A DNA stretch of 44,741 bases, taken from the NCBI GenBank assembly GCA_947089915.1, contig CAMUMB010000006.1, positions 1 to 44,741 on the forward strand, given 5' to 3'. This stretch comes from an uncultured Caryophanales bacterium (GTDB lineage Bacteria; Bacillota_I; Bacilli_A; RF39; UBA660). The position numbers and the translations under genes are program-made. Below, piece after piece: positions 25,239-31,531 of the stretch; the stretch's first letter is position 1, and each line of letters begins with the position of its first letter. The notes beneath the pieces are model-generated. The model was not told the origin of the DNA. It did not search any database and worked only from the letters and a program-made list of their open reading frames with translations.

Positions 25239-26513
25239 ATGAAAAAAGGATTTGCAGTATCTGCTATTTTGTATACAATGTTATTATTATTCCTAGTATT
25301 GTTAGTAGGAATTTTAAATAACCTTCAAAATAAAAAAACAGTATTAGATCAATTAAAAACAGAAGTAATATCCTCACAAGTGAAAACCAGTGTACCGGTT
25401 ATAAGGGTCAAGGTAAGTAACAAAACTGCATTATTTGACATAAGCGATGATTTTGGAATTATTGGATACTTTGTTGGTACAACGAAAAAAATCCCAGAAG
25501 AGGAAGAGTGGATTAATTTAAATGAAGATTTGGAAACAACAATAGAATGGAAAGCACCTGGAATAGGAAGCTATTATATCTATGCGAGAAATATACTAGG
25601 TCGAGTTTCCATGAAAGAATATACTATAAAGACTTTTTGTCCTTATGATGTTGGAGATGTATGGAGTTATTCTTATAAGAATGATGCCGAAGAATTTGTG
25701 GTTCCATGTGCTGCAACGTATAAATTAGAGGCTTGGGGAGCTGGGAACGGTATTAAAGGTGGTGGATATACGACAGGAGAAGCTAGTTTAGATAAAGATA
25801 GTAGCTTGTATATTTATGTTGGGGGAAGTTTAAAACCATTTAATGGAGGTGGAACAGGAAGTTATCCTGGCTCTGGGGCAACTGATATTCGAGTAATACC
25901 TGCAACAGATGGTTCTTGGTATGACACAAATCATACATCTTGGGAACAGGACGCAAGTCTTTTATCAAGATTAATTACTTCTGGAGGAGCAGGTGGAAAA
26001 TCCTATTTTAATGATCCTAGAGGAAGAACTTCAAATAATAGATATACAGGGGGATATTCTTGGTCGAATGGACAAAAAACTGTTACAAATGATTCTGCTG
26101 CTGCATTAGGTGATACATCTGTTAATTCCACCTTTGGATTGGGAGTATCGGGAAGTTCATACGAAATTAATTATAGTTTAACTTCATATGAACAATGGGT
26201 AACTCCTGCAGGTGGAGGCGGATGGAATGGCGGATATGGAACTAATTTTCTATCGAAATCTGGCTATTCAACCTATAATGAAGGAAATATGCAAGGAGAG
26301 GGAACATCAGTATCCAATTATACAAGTATCAAAGTTCCGCTTGGAGCAACAGGAGGCACAAATCATATACAAACAACGTATGGCAAATATACATTGACAA
26401 ATACCCAATCGTTATCTGGTAGTGAAAAAATGCCTACTCAAGATGGTGGTTCAACTATGACAGGAAACTTATCAGATGGATTTGTTAAAATTACATTGGT
26501 TTCATTTGAGTAA
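25239..26513 (+). CDS. glycine-rich surface protein with pilin-like N-terminus
   Basis: The 424-residue product begins MKKGFAVSAILYTMLLLFLV, a short basic leader and hydrophobic helix reminiscent of prepilins, though without Glu5. An Ig-like segment (about residues 50-130) follows. The rest is a Gly/Ser/Thr-rich domain (KLEAWGAGNGIKGGGYTTGE, YIYVGGSL, GSGATDIRV, SRLITSGGAGGKS). It resembles the Gly_rich domain of bacterial surface proteins and of ALK-type receptors. It should sit outside the membrane. GAGGAG precedes the ATG. It is monocistronic between terminators. Confidence 0.8.
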   Translation: MKKGFAVSAILYTMLLLFLVLLVGILNNLQNKKTVLDQLKTEVISSQVKTSVPVIRVKVSNKTALFDISDDFGIIGYFVGTTKKIPEEEEWINLNEDLETTIEWKAPGIGSYYIYARNILGRVSMKEYTIKTFCPYDVGDVWSYSYKNDAEEFVVPCAATYKLEAWGAGNGIKGGGYTTGEASLDKDSSLYIYVGGSLKPFNGGGTGSYPGSGATDIRVIPATDGSWYDTNHTSWEQDASLLSRLITSGGAGGKSYFNDPRGRTSNNRYTGGYSWSNGQKTVTNDSAAALGDTSVNSTFGLGVSGSSYEINYSLTSYEQWVTPAGGGGWNGGYGTNFLSKSGYSTYNEGNMQGEGTSVSNYTSIKVPLGATGGTNHIQTTYGKYTLTNTQSLSGSEKMPTQDGGSTMTGNLSDGFVKITLVSFE

Positions 26514-26621: not shown

Positions 26622-27890
26622 ATGAAAGGCATAAAATTAGTACAAAACAAAGAAATGTCAAAAGATCGCTTTACAATTTACAATAAACCAAAAAATATAT
26701 ACATTCCTCTTATTGTGGGAAATGATATTGATATTACGATTTTGGTAAAAAAAGGGGATTATGTTTGTAAGGGTGAGGTCGTAGCAAGAAGGAAAGGATT
26801 TCTTACAATTCCATTACATTCTAGTATCAGTGGAACAGTTGTTGGATTTGAAGAACAGCTACATCATAGTGGAAAGTATGTAAAGTGCATTAAAATCGAA
26901 AATGATTTTAAAGAACGTACTATCGAAAAACAAGAAGAAAAACCAATTTCTAAATATTCTAAACAAGAATTTATAGAGATTATAAAAAATGCGGGAATCA
27001 TTGGAATGGGTGGGGCAGGCTTTCCCACCTATATTAAATATCAAACAGAACAAAATATCAAAACTCTGATTGTCAATGCAGTAGAGTGTGAGCCTTATAT
27101 TACAGCTGACTATACAATAGGTATACAAAAGGCAGAAGAAATTTTAGAAACAATTGATGCAATATTAGAAATTAATCGAATTCAAAATGCTGTAATTGCG
27201 ATCAAAAAAAATAATAGTAAATTGTTGCAGGCCTTTCAAACAAGGATTGGGACTTATGTTAATATTAAAATTGTAGAAGTACCGAATCTATACCCAATAG
27301 GTTGGGAAAAAGCATTGGTACAATTTATAACTAGAAACACTTATGATAAACTTCCAATTGAAATTGGAATTGTTGTAAATAATATATCTACTATATATGC
27401 AATTTATCAGGCATTAAAAAAAGGAGTTCCTTTAACCGAACGGATTGTAACAATTACAGGAGAGATGTTAAAACAACCAACCAATGTACTCGTTAAAATC
27501 GGAACGCCTATTCATGAAGTAATTGAAGCAATTGGCGGAATGAAACGTACCAAAGATATTTTATGTATCGCAGGAGGTCCCATGATGGGCATTACGTTAC
27601 CAAATGATAATGTGATTGTTACTGCAGATATGAATGCAATTGTTATTTTAAAAGAAAAAGAGGATTTTTTAGAACAAACCTGTATGCGTTGTGGAAAATG
27701 TGTAGAAGTTTGTCCATCTAGAATTGAACCAGTATTAATTAAAGATTCATACGAAAACAAAGAAGCATTATTAAAGTTACAAGTAAATAAATGTGTAGAA
27801 TGTGGTTTATGTTCTTATATTTGCCCCGCTAAAATAAAGGTAAGAGAGTACGTAAAAAAAGCCAAAGAAACATTGAGAAAGGATGAATAA
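26622..27890 (+). CDS. rnfC: Rnf electron-transport complex subunit C
   Basis: RnfC is the peripheral NADH/flavin and Fe-S subunit of the ferredoxin:NAD+ oxidoreductase, which couples electron flow to ion export. The 422-residue product has the FMN/NADH loop GMGGAGFPTYIK and NAVECEPYITAD. Two [4Fe-4S] motifs are present: CMRCGKCVEVC (Cys 354, 357, 360, 364) and CVECGLCSYIC (391, 394, 397, 401). All expected ligands are present. GGTGAT precedes the ATG. It heads an eight-gene tightly packed operon, and the next start lies immediately after its stop. Confidence 0.95.
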   Translation: MKGIKLVQNKEMSKDRFTIYNKPKNIYIPLIVGNDIDITILVKKGDYVCKGEVVARRKGFLTIPLHSSISGTVVGFEEQLHHSGKYVKCIKIENDFKERTIEKQEEKPISKYSKQEFIEIIKNAGIIGMGGAGFPTYIKYQTEQNIKTLIVNAVECEPYITADYTIGIQKAEEILETIDAILEINRIQNAVIAIKKNNSKLLQAFQTRIGTYVNIKIVEVPNLYPIGWEKALVQFITRNTYDKLPIEIGIVVNNISTIYAIYQALKKGVPLTERIVTITGEMLKQPTNVLVKIGTPIHEVIEAIGGMKRTKDILCIAGGPMMGITLPNDNVIVTADMNAIVILKEKEDFLEQTCMRCGKCVEVCPSRIEPVLIKDSYENKEALLKLQVNKCVECGLCSYICPAKIKVREYVKKAKETLRKDE

Positions 27891-27891
27891 A

Positions 27892-29337
27892 ATGAAAGCG
27901 TATCATAGTCAAATTGGGCCATTTCAAAGAAGTAAAAATAAAACATCCTCTATGATGTTTCATGTGGTACTTGCACTCTTACCTATTATAATATTTAGTT
28001 TTTATAAAAATGGAATTGTTCCATATATACATCATAATGTAGGAATATTTGGTATGTTTTATCCATTATTATTTATTGCAATCCCACCTGTCATTACATT
28101 TACAACAGAATGGGTTGGAGCATATTTTTTTCTTCGTAAAAAAAGTGATAATTTAAAAGAATATATGAAAAACTCCTATGCGATTTTACCAGGATTATTT
28201 TTGGCTCTTATACTTCCAATTCATACACCGATTTCCATTCTAATACTAGGTTCAATCATTGCAACTGTAATTGGTAAACTTGTTTATGGAGGTTTTGGTA
28301 ATAATATTTTTAATCCTGCTTTAGTAGGACGTTTATTTGTTATCACTGCTTATGCAGGTGTGATTGCAAGTCATGGTGGTTATTTGAATCCCTATGAAGT
28401 AGATACTATTAGTAAGGCAACACCACTTTCAAATGCGTTAAGCATAGAAGGAATCGGCACTTACGAAATCTTAGTAAAACCATATGGAAGTTTATGGAAT
28501 TTCTTTATAGGAATGATTCCTGGAACAGTTGGAGAAACGAGTGCATTATTATGTATCGTTGGCTTTCTTTATCTTACATGGAAACGGGTCATTAAATGGA
28601 GAATTCCTGTCTTCTATATTGGAACAGTCTTTTTCTTAACCACAGTAATTGGGCTTAGTAATGGACTTTCCATCTGGTATCCAATTTTTCAAATTTTAAG
28701 TGGTGGTCTTTTCTTTGGTGCTATTTTTATGGCAACAGATCCTGTTACTTCACCAGTGACCAAAAATGGACAAATTATTTATGGAACTGGGTTAGGTATT
28801 TTGACAGTTATTTTCCGTTATTTGACATCTTATCCAGAAGGTGTGTTAACGAGTATTTTAACAATGAATATGCTTGTATTCATTGTAGATAGACTTGGTA
28901 TGCAATGCAAAAAAAGAGAAAATGGGTTAATTACGATTGCTGTAATTCTTATTTTATTTGGAATAGTAGTATATACGATAAATACTCGTTATACCAACAG
29001 TGGGGAAACAGTAGACCCAAACTTTGTATTATTGGAAGAAAGACAAATAGGAAATCAAGTTATTTATACAGTTTCTGAAAAAGGAAACGGAGGACCTATT
29101 GCTTGCGAGGTTACAATTAGAGATGGTAACATTATAAAACTACAAGTATTAGAACATAATGAAACACCAAATTATTATGCGTTAGTAGAAAAAGAAGATT
29201 ATATTAATATACTGATGAAAGAACAGAAAAAATTACCAGAGTTAGATACTGTTAGTGGAGCAACCATTTCATCCAATGCACTAAAAAAATTAGTGATTAA
29301 TACATTACAAGAATATGAGGAACATTATGAAAAATAA
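27892..29337 (+). CDS. RnfD-RnfG fusion protein
   Basis: The 481-residue product has two parts. Residues 1 to about 340 are an RnfD-like multi-helix membrane protein, with FGNNIFNPALVGR and the TDPVTSPVT motif near 282-290. After a further helix (LITIAVILILFGIVVYTI) comes a short FMN_bind domain. It ends with DTVSGATISSNALK, whose Thr458 is the residue that carries covalent FMN in RnfG/NqrC. RnfD and RnfG are normally separate, about 300 and 200 residues. ATG 27892 is preferred over 27883, which overlaps the ribosome site. The fusion fixes a 1:1 ratio of the two flavin subunits. Confidence 0.88.
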   Translation: MKAYHSQIGPFQRSKNKTSSMMFHVVLALLPIIIFSFYKNGIVPYIHHNVGIFGMFYPLLFIAIPPVITFTTEWVGAYFFLRKKSDNLKEYMKNSYAILPGLFLALILPIHTPISILILGSIIATVIGKLVYGGFGNNIFNPALVGRLFVITAYAGVIASHGGYLNPYEVDTISKATPLSNALSIEGIGTYEILVKPYGSLWNFFIGMIPGTVGETSALLCIVGFLYLTWKRVIKWRIPVFYIGTVFFLTTVIGLSNGLSIWYPIFQILSGGLFFGAIFMATDPVTSPVTKNGQIIYGTGLGILTVIFRYLTSYPEGVLTSILTMNMLVFIVDRLGMQCKKRENGLITIAVILILFGIVVYTINTRYTNSGETVDPNFVLLEERQIGNQVIYTVSEKGNGGPIACEVTIRDGNIIKLQVLEHNETPNYYALVEKEDYINILMKEQKKLPELDTVSGATISSNALKKLVINTLQEYEEHYEK

Positions 29338-29425
29338 AAAATTACAAGGAATACTAGCACTTACCATTACAACATTTATCTGTACATCAATTTTATATTT
29401 AGTAATGACTTTTATTGGGGGTTAA
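29327..29425 (+). CDS. 32-residue membrane microprotein resembling the RnfG N-terminus
   Basis: GAGGAA lies 5 nt before ATG 29327, which is inside the 3' end of the rnfD-G gene (11-nt overlap). The product starts MKNKKLQGILALTITTFICT and is one basic-capped hydrophobic helix ending FIGG. The K-x-x-GILALT opening is what free-standing RnfG proteins have before their FMN domain. It may be the relic or detached membrane anchor of RnfG, now acting as a small subunit. Translation is inferred from the ribosome site and tight packing. Confidence 0.6.
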   Translation: MKNKKLQGILALTITTFICTSILYLVMTFIGG

Positions 29426-29427
29426 AG

Positions 29428-29967
29428 ATGGCAATCGAGAAATTTTATTATGATATATTGCATATTTATCCAAATCAATTATCAGAAAAAGAAATTATAA
29501 AAATAATAGAACAAACAATTGAAATGCAAATGAAGCCAATTAAAGCTGTTTCTGATACTATGGAGGGATTATGCAAAGTAGCTAGTTATAATATTGGAGA
29601 ACAATTAAAACAATGTGGTATTAATATTCAATATTTGAATACAAAAGTTATATTGGGTTGTTTTGAACATGTTGCTATCATCGTAGATTATAAAATAAAT
29701 GATGTAATAAATTATATTTTGGTAGATACAACGTTTGAACAATTTATCCCAAAGAAATTTAGTGAAAGAAATTCTGCATTATATGAGTGGCCTAGTGAAA
29801 TTTTAGAAAATAGAAATCCAAAACTTTATAGAAATCTAATTACCAAAGGATATTCTAAAGTAAAACCTAAAGATTATGAGGATTATTTAAAAAGTTTTTC
29901 TACTGATTATCAAGTAGGGGAGAATATATTATTAGGCATGGTATTAAAGGAACAAAAGAGAAAGTAG
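29428..29967 (+). CDS. papain/transglutaminase-fold-like protein within the rnf operon
   Basis: The 179-residue soluble product is not a known Rnf part. It has Cys49 (EGLCKVASYNIGEQL), His81 (FEHVAIIVDYK) and Asp100 (YILVDTTFEQF). The order and spacing are those of a Cys-His-Asp triad in transglutaminase-like or NAT-like papain folds, with the DxTxxQF block typical of that group. GGGGGT precedes the ATG, 2 nt after the microprotein stop and 11 nt before rnfE, so it is cotranscribed. It could act on a complex subunit or be an unrelated passenger. Confidence 0.6.
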   Translation: MAIEKFYYDILHIYPNQLSEKEIIKIIEQTIEMQMKPIKAVSDTMEGLCKVASYNIGEQLKQCGINIQYLNTKVILGCFEHVAIIVDYKINDVINYILVDTTFEQFIPKKFSERNSALYEWPSEILENRNPKLYRNLITKGYSKVKPKDYEDYLKSFSTDYQVGENILLGMVLKEQKRK

Positions 29968-29978
29968 GAATTAATAGT

Positions 29979-30617
29979 ATGAAAACAATTCAAAATGGAA
30001 TTATAAAAGAAAACCCAGTCTTTGTTTTGTTATTAGGCTTGTGTTCTACACTTGCAATTACAACAAAGTTTGAAAATGCCTATTTAATGGGAATCTGTGT
30101 AACCATTGTATTAATCGTTTCCAATCTGATTGTATCTTGCATTCGAAAATGGATTCCAGAGAGTGTAAAAACACCTGTTTATATTTTAATTATCGCAACA
30201 CTAGTTACCATAATGGAATTGTTATTGCATTCTTATGCAAGGGATGTTTATCAAGTCTTTGGAATTTATCTTCCTTTGATTGTAGTGAATTGTATTATCT
30301 TAGGAAGAGCATTAGCAGTAGCCTCAAAAACATCTGTATGTAAAAGCATATTGGATGGCTTTGGAATTGGTCTAGGTTATACAATTGCTTTAATGATTAT
30401 CGCGTGCATTCGGGAAGTACTAGGAAGTAATACGATTACATTTATGGATTCTATTAGTACCATAACAGGATATCGGGCAATTTATCGTGTTTTTCCAGAA
30501 AATGAGCTGATTCCAATATCTTTTCTAATTTCACCTGCTGGCGCTTTTCTCACTTTAGGATTATTAATGGCAATATTTAACGCTATACGTAAAGGAGGAA
30601 AACATGAATCTCATTAA
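29979..30617 (+). CDS. rnfE: Rnf electron-transport complex subunit E
   Basis: The 212-residue integral membrane protein has six helices. It carries the two conserved Cys motifs, LGLCSTLAIT in helix 1 and VNCIILGRA in the second half, which with those of RnfA hold an intramembrane iron-sulphur centre in Rnf/Nqr complexes. Spacing is normal. The C-terminus (AIRKGGKHESH) overlaps the start of rnfA by 14 nt. Confidence 0.95.
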   Translation: MKTIQNGIIKENPVFVLLLGLCSTLAITTKFENAYLMGICVTIVLIVSNLIVSCIRKWIPESVKTPVYILIIATLVTIMELLLHSYARDVYQVFGIYLPLIVVNCIILGRALAVASKTSVCKSILDGFGIGLGYTIALMIIACIREVLGSNTITFMDSISTITGYRAIYRVFPENELIPISFLISPAGAFLTLGLLMAIFNAIRKGGKHESH

Positions 30618-31173
30618 TCTATTTATCATGAGTATTTTAACAGAAAATATCGTACTGATGAAATTTTTAGGTATTTGTCCTTTTATTGGAACTTCTAGCA
30701 AAGAAAAAAGTGCACTTGGAATGGGTGTTTCTGTAACCATTGTTATTACATTGTCCTCCATCATTACTTATCTTTTATATTATTACATATTAGTACCAAC
30801 AGATACTACATATTTAAAAACCTTATCATTTGTATTAGTTGTTGCTTGCATGGTACAGCTAATAGAAATGTTAATCAAAAGAAGAAATCCCAAGCTATAT
30901 CATAGTCTAGGAATCTATTTACCACTAATTACGACTAATTGTGCAGTATTAGGTGTTTTATTACTTAATATTACGAACCAATATTCTTTTTTAGAAATGT
31001 TAACCTTTAGTATAGGATCTAGTTTAGGCTTTACACTTGTTATTTATATTTTTTCTACCATTCGTGAGGCATTGGAAAGAAGAAATGTTCCCAACAGCTT
31101 TAAAGGATATCCAATTGCGCTCATTACTGCATCTATTATGGCACTTTTATTCTCAAGGTATTTGATTGTATGA
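30604..31173 (+). CDS. rnfA: Rnf electron-transport complex subunit A
   Basis: The 189-residue six-helix membrane protein pairs with RnfE. Conserved Cys motifs are FLGICPFIGTS and TTNCAVLGV. It has the inverted-topology relation to RnfE expected of this pair. GGAGG lies 6 nt before the ATG, inside the rnfE end. Its stop overlaps the next start as ATGA, which is a sign of strict coupling to the Cys-rich peptide that follows. Confidence 0.95.
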   Translation: MNLINLFIMSILTENIVLMKFLGICPFIGTSSKEKSALGMGVSVTIVITLSSIITYLLYYYILVPTDTTYLKTLSFVLVVACMVQLIEMLIKRRNPKLYHSLGIYLPLITTNCAVLGVLLLNITNQYSFLEMLTFSIGSSLGFTLVIYIFSTIREALERRNVPNSFKGYPIALITASIMALLFSRYLIV

Positions 31174-31283
31174 TCGCATATATGATAATAGGGACTCTTA
31201 TTTTCTTGTATTTATTTCTTGCCAGAAAGAATAAATGTCATGGATGTATGTTATGTGAAAAATGTAAGGAGAAAAAAGAATGA
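31170..31283 (+). CDS. 37-residue membrane peptide with CxxCxxCxxC motif
   Basis: ATG 31170 overlaps the rnfA stop (ATGA), and its own TGA overlaps the rnfB ATG (ATGA again), so three genes are chained. The product is one N-terminal hydrophobic helix (residues 1-18, IAYMIIGTLIFLYLFLA), a basic junction RKNK, then CHGCMLCEKC (Cys 23, 26, 29, 32) and a charged end. Four Cys at regular two-residue spacing could bind a [4Fe-4S] centre or another metal at the cytoplasmic face. It loosely resembles FeoB-associated Cys-rich membrane peptides. I know of no Rnf subunit like it. Confidence 0.65.
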   Translation: MIAYMIIGTLIFLYLFLARKNKCHGCMLCEKCKEKKE

Positions 31284-31531
31284 TAGGAATTTTAATTATG
31301 ACTATACTCGCTTTTGTTTTAGGAATTTTATTGGTAATCATTGCTGATAAAACAGAAAAGCAAGATTATTTAAAATACTTACCAAGCTACAATTGTGGCG
31401 TTTGTGGCTTTGGTAGTTGTAAAGGTATGAGTGATGCAATGGAGAAGGATATAGAAAGTTATAAAAAGTGTAAATTGTTAAAAGGTGAAGCATTAAAGAA
31501 AATAGAAGAACTGGTAGAATCACAAAAATAA
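31280..31531 (+). CDS. rnfB: minimal RnfB (N-terminal domain only)
   Basis: The 83-residue product has an N-terminal helix (about residues 2-21). It then has the RnfB-type Fe-S domain LPSYNCGVCGFGSCKGM, with Cys39, Cys42, Cys47 and Cys64. This Cx2Cx4Cx16C pattern matches the first RnfB cluster. The two or more ferredoxin-like [4Fe-4S] domains that make typical RnfB over 250 residues are absent, and no Cys-rich reading frame follows the stop, so this is not a simple frameshift. AAGGAG precedes the ATG. It is the last gene of the operon, followed by the murD promoter. Confidence 0.85.
   Translation: MIGILIMTILAFVLGILLVIIADKTEKQDYLKYLPSYNCGVCGFGSCKGMSDAMEKDIESYKKCKLLKGEALKKIEELVESQK

Follow-up and report, generated by a model that had tools for sequence, protein, structure and literature searches.

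In Rnf, electrons pass from the RnfA/E iron–sulfur cluster to RnfD by way of an FMN shuttle borne on the outer domain of RnfG, and the rnf operon described here raises the question of what has become of RnfG. Within the window, by which we mean the whole analysed stretch of 44,741 nt (part of contig C6 in the 1.27-Mb genome G000), the operon runs, with all its features on the plus strand, in the order rnfC (26622–27890; TIGR01945, 383.6 bits), rnfD fused to an FMN_bind domain (rnfD-FMN, 27883–29337), a 32-codon gene (29327–29425), a 179-codon ORF (29428–29967), rnfE (29979–30617; TIGR01948, 217.1 bits), rnfA (30604–31173; TIGR01943, 230.0 bits), a 37-codon gene (31170–31283) and a short rnfB (31280–31531). 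RnfA, a short RnfB, RnfC, RnfD and RnfE are encoded, and RnfG is represented by what we read as its helix only, so that the six-subunit set is not complete. All four cluster cysteines of RnfA and RnfE are kept, in the GLC and VNC motifs of RnfE and the GIC and TNC motifs of RnfA, as read off the translations. Just 5′ of the operon (25239–26513) lies a gene for a 424-aa protein whose N-terminus is hydrophobic and which contains a glycine-rich ALK/LTK-like domain (PF12810, 53.8 bits). We propose that the 32-codon gene is, very probably, a remnant of rnfG, encoding the N-terminal helix as a separate subunit that would hold the A/E/B bundle, with the FMN shuttle now placed on RnfD.

The 32-codon gene and its neighbours

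The original prediction described a tiny gene with its own ribosome site, overlapping the end of rnfD, and this description holds. The ORF at 29327–29425, whose 32-aa product is MKNKKLQGILALTITTFICTSILYLVMTFIGG, starts with an ATG at 29327 and overlaps the last 11 bases of rnfD-FMN, and it is preceded by the ribosome-site-like motif GAGGAA at 29317–29322, within the rnfD-FMN end. An alternative start, the ATG at 29315 (12 bases upstream), was rejected, as it has no ribosome site and the four extra codons are unconserved. Relatives possess an ORF of 28–45 codons and of similar character at the same position, amounting to 55 distinct orthologous sequences, 53 of which have a ribosome-site-like motif 5′ of the ORF. 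Matches to the microprotein profile were identified in 57 of the 386 family genomes (nearly all of them draft, incomplete assemblies) and in 33 of the 150 genera, with E-values down to 1e-15. The gene is spaced −13 to +10 bases from rnfD and often ends approximately 10–50 bases from rnfE, and in several genera a gene of approximately 540–840 bases is inserted between it and rnfE.

Substitutions were counted in those microprotein codons that lie outside the rnfD overlap. Across 11 separate pairs of relatives, 116 substitutions were synonymous and 92 non-synonymous, with about 24% synonymous expected (p = 4e-23); pS is 0.54, pN 0.135 and dN/dS approximately 0.15. Purifying selection, which the original prediction had proposed to look for in the 32 codons, is evident from these counts, and at the level of the substitution pattern the ORF is confirmed as a real gene. 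New among the features of its product is a cysteine, Cys19, which is assigned a mid-membrane position and does not vary among the 55 distinct sequences; Thr13 is conserved in 49 and Tyr24 in 46 of them. The net charge is +2.2 at the N-terminus and approximately +0.3 at the C-terminus, a pattern that fits an N-in/C-out orientation, as in RnfG.

The accessory 179-aa ORF that follows the microprotein gene is present in some genera only. Its invariant Cys49, His81 and Asp100 may point to a papain- or transglutaminase-like enzyme, a reading that is only a hint, since a fold search with this ORF gave no match. In the same place, another genus carries a different protein of 273–276 aa with a similar Cys/His/Asp pattern (L039, L070, L073). 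Between rnfA and rnfB, nearly all family loci encode another small membrane protein (approximately 33–45 aa), composed of one helix and a tail with mostly three or four cysteines (CxxCxxC); the 37-aa window copy has a CxxCxxCxxC tail, and a similar ORF occurs in the more distant L054. The adjacent RnfB of the window (83 aa) consists of an anchor helix and one Fe–S domain, without ferredoxin domains, and short RnfB is also found in other families of the class (L052–L056). The cysteine-rich microprotein might serve as an extra metal or Fe–S carrier for an Rnf with ferredoxin-less RnfB.

Likeness to the RnfG anchor helix

The claim that the product corresponds to the RnfG N-terminal helix was borne out by a profile of free RnfG N-termini, by synteny and by transitional stubs. 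The profile was built from residues 1–40 of 58 free RnfG proteins belonging to other lineages; microproteins score a median of 12.5 bits against it, versus a 99th percentile of 5.1 bits in 2259 control ORFs from the same loci, and the best matches are those of L082 (E = 1.5e-11) and L088 (E = 1.3e-10). The window microprotein itself reaches only 1.4 bits, and because of this low score its homology to RnfG is transitive, via its orthologues. The control nearest to the profile is the RnfB anchor helix, at 12.9 bits, and there is little signal in a hydrophobic helix of 30 residues, which limits any homology claim. In L082, L088 and L101, the microprotein extends further, into a tail containing T-D-P-L-I, T-E-P-L-I and T-K-P-L-I, respectively, and this T-x-P-L-I tail is the signature that follows the helix in RnfG (T-x-P-x-I in free RnfG). 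The microprotein gene also occupies the rnfG slot, between rnfD and rnfE. In the sister family f16, a complete rnfG (helix and FMN domain) lies 0–7 bases from the D-FMN stop (L207, L210, L211, L214, L222), that is, at the same overlap position as the microprotein gene, which supports the identity of the slot.

Compared with RnfG/NqrC (TIGR01947), the microprotein shares the N-terminal anchor helix, the gene place between rnfD and rnfE, and the N-in/C-out charge pattern, whereas it has neither the linker helix nor the extracytoplasmic FMN_bind domain with its SGAT site, the gene ending after the helix. A position held by Ala, Ser, Met or Cys in RnfG is always Cys in the microprotein, and where the RnfG helix has a small residue close to its end, the microprotein has Tyr or Phe. 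Searches of the microprotein against Pfam and NCBIfam gave no match, and its profile retrieved nothing up to E = 10 from the sequences of solved structures. A weak match to the microprotein profile in G290 (2.7e-6), a genome without rnfD, was set aside as chance.

Other origins of the gene deserve consideration. It could be a decaying remnant, the tail of an rnfG pseudogene kept by chance or by the overlap with rnfD, as the shortness of the gene and the reduced genomes would allow; however, the substitution pattern outside the overlap (dN/dS 0.15, p = 4e-23) refutes this, and the ribosome sites, the invariant cysteine and the spread over 33 genera argue in the same direction, leaving it next to no probability. 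Just as implausible is a pure translation relay, in which the overlapping ORF would do nothing except keep ribosomes moving from rnfD to rnfE: the tight spacing to rnfD and the often short distance to rnfE agree with it, yet what is conserved is the amino-acid sequence, including one invariant residue, and not mere openness of the frame, and in several genera the inserted gene separates the microprotein gene from rnfE. The product might, alternatively, be a small membrane peptide with a part in Rnf regulation or assembly and no origin in RnfG, for instance a duplicate of the anchor helix of RnfB. That, of all controls, the RnfB anchor comes nearest to the RnfG-helix profile, and that the same operon encodes a second small membrane protein, speak for such a peptide, whereas the rnfG slot, the overlap shared with the full rnfG of f16, the T-x-P-L-I stub in three relatives and the E-values down to 1.5e-11 speak for RnfG, and we consider an unrelated peptide quite improbable.

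The FMN domain on RnfD and its origin

The continuation of rnfD into an FMN_bind domain bearing the SGATIS threonine was seen as predicted. In the 484-aa fusion product, the RnfD part scores above the curated TIGR01946 cut-off (221.5 bits; cut-off 207.05) and its fold matches 9eri_D and 7zc6_D, while Pfam FMN_bind (PF04205) is matched at residues 401–476 with 58.4 bits (cut-off 22). The Pfam match, the structure model and the fold comparison delimit the domain at residues 382–484 (29026–29334). Within DTVSGATISS (residues 455–464), Thr461 (codon at 29263–29265) is the predicted covalent-FMN site; it is invariant in A1 and, in the model, stands at the start of the last helix of the fused domain, as in RnfG. 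RnfD has a predicted covalent-FMN site of its own, ATPL, with Thr180 likewise invariant in A1. Attachment of FMN needs ApbE, which is encoded in the same genome (PF02424, E = 5.6e-66), and with a D-x-x-S-G-A-T site in the outer domain the fusion protein is, judging from its sequence, a candidate for ApbE flavinylation.

The helix ahead of the FMN domain, which the original prediction regarded as added, proved to be RnfD's own C-terminal extension. This eleventh helix (residues 345–369 in the model, 28915–28989) joins the membrane part to the FMN domain, and the same extra helix occurs, in several lineages, in RnfD proteins without an FMN domain (L048, L049, L054–L056). For the same reason we rejected the idea that it is the RnfG helix; the segment scores at control level against the RnfG-helix profile, with a median of −0.8 bits and a best score of 8.1 bits. 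Several relatives, including L037 (3053–4837, oriented) and L039 (3571–5343, oriented), carry a tandem pair of FMN_bind domains behind RnfD, in a protein of approximately 590 aa. In L143 and L147 (Traorella, Dielma), an RnfE with a C-terminal FMN_bind domain (366–369 aa) is found in addition to a D-FMN fusion and a complete RnfG.

The locus had originally been interpreted as a split RnfG; the orphan helix of that interpretation stood, while the fused domain fits poorly as the cut-off half. Its nearest solved structure is 8p2b, a minimal domain of the multi-flavin type (TM-score 0.86, rmsd 1.6; 36% identity over 84 columns), versus a TM-score of 0.41 for RnfG. It shares fold and size with this domain 1 of CbFMN4 (PDB 8p2b), which differs in being one of several domains in a multi-flavin protein, whereas here a single domain is fixed to RnfD. 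In an unconstrained tree, the fused domains are set apart from RnfG by a 100/97 branch and grouped with the D-fusion domains of f16. Moreover, the D-FMN fusion and complete RnfG coexist in f16, in Erysipelotrichaceae such as Dielma, in Traorella and in Proteiniclasticum; such fusions have the FMN domain or domains behind the extra RnfD helix, as in the window, but full-length RnfG has been kept beside them where only the helix is present here. A true split, with RnfG cut in two, its FMN domain moved to RnfD and the helix left behind, would account for an FMN_bind domain with an RnfG-like SGAT site directly before an orphan helix, and an AU test does not reject the grouping of the fused domains with RnfG (p = 0.37). 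Set against the structural comparison, the tree and the coexistence with complete RnfG, such a split keeps a modest chance of being correct. Replacement fits better, because the domain is nearer to the multi-flavin type and because sister families combine D-FMN with full RnfG; the FMN domain would then have been gained on RnfD first, and the RnfG domain lost later.

Co-occurrence with RnfA/E/B and a proposed role

Among the 386 genomes, rnfE was found in 58 and the microprotein in 57, the two occurring together in 56 by threshold and in 57 by eye; the additional genome is G185, whose microprotein falls below the threshold (L095). G173 has D-FMN, RnfE and RnfA and is without both the microprotein and rnfB; a search of this genome found no rnfB, and its rnfA is followed by unrelated genes, resembling those of a translation initiation factor and ribosomal proteins. 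Absence of the ORF from close relatives that retain the fusion had been named as evidence against the original prediction, and where the fusion has an adjacent rnfE the ORF is missing only in G173, the genome that is also rnfB-less. Genomes with a D-FMN fusion but without rnfE (e.g. G050, G222, G026, G182 and G314) contain no microprotein. The association between rnfE and the microprotein yields a Fisher's p of 4e-66 from genomes that are related and so not independent, and dependence on A/E/B is better argued from the repeated, separate losses. As judged from gene content, the presence of the microprotein follows RnfA/E/B and not the D-FMN fusion, a dependence that agrees with the independent structural role first suggested for the helix. 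In some genera (L041, L042, L093 and L103–L105), rnfC and rnfD-FMN are kept with no rnfE at the locus or elsewhere in the genome, and the two genes possibly form a flavin electron path from NADH to the outside. A fusion of microprotein and RnfE by readthrough was also considered and dropped, as the ends to be joined by a short linker should lie on different sides of the membrane.

In the Rnf complex of Clostridium tetanomorphum, RnfA, RnfE, RnfB and RnfG each contribute one helix to a four-helix bundle, this being the single helix of RnfB and of RnfG, and the soluble domain of RnfG hangs by a linker from its remote anchor helix (PMC9588780). In that of Acetobacterium woodii, RnfG contacts mainly RnfA/E, its contacts with RnfD are minor, and TM1B touches TM1G (PMC11889175). 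Given this published position of the RnfG helix in the A/E/B bundle, away from RnfD, we read the microprotein as a bundle-keeping subunit. If, as we infer, it is translated, its helix would, by analogy with RnfG, pack with RnfA, RnfE and RnfB. Electron shuttling most likely passed to the minimal FMN domain on the extra RnfD helix, and RnfG's own outer domain would have been lost, the anchor helix being retained, we propose, because the A/E/B bundle needs it. Relative to the A. woodii and C. tetanomorphum complexes, C, D, E, A and B remain recognisable, and the A/E cluster cysteines and the RnfD FMN site are kept; in contrast to them, the FMN shuttle domain is here on RnfD, not tethered to the A/E/B bundle, RnfG is a helix, RnfB has no ferredoxin domains and an extra cysteine-rich small protein is present. 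A bolder reading, which we think rather unlikely, would give the microprotein an active part in ion pumping, as a gate or a redox helper, through the mid-membrane Cys19, which possibly lies near the RnfA/E cluster; the flavin shuttle, tethered at RnfD, would then have no mechanical coupling to the pump half of the complex.

Multi-flavin RnfG proteins and NqrB/RnfD-like modules have already been described (PMC8238504), and in the literature searched we found no description of RnfG reduced to its helix. The energetics of RnfG/NqrC movement between RnfA/E and RnfD are not understood (PMC12174285). With a bundle-keeping helix and an RnfD-borne shuttle, anchor and flavin domain would have been separated in nature and both kept. 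If the complex works, no continuous stalk is needed from the A/E/B bundle to the flavin, and the part that the anchor helix plays in the pump is separable. A membrane subunit would thereby be down to one helix, of a kind easily overlooked by gene finders, and this arrangement suggests that the anchor helix has its own job in the Rnf complex of these small-genome, gut-type bacteria.
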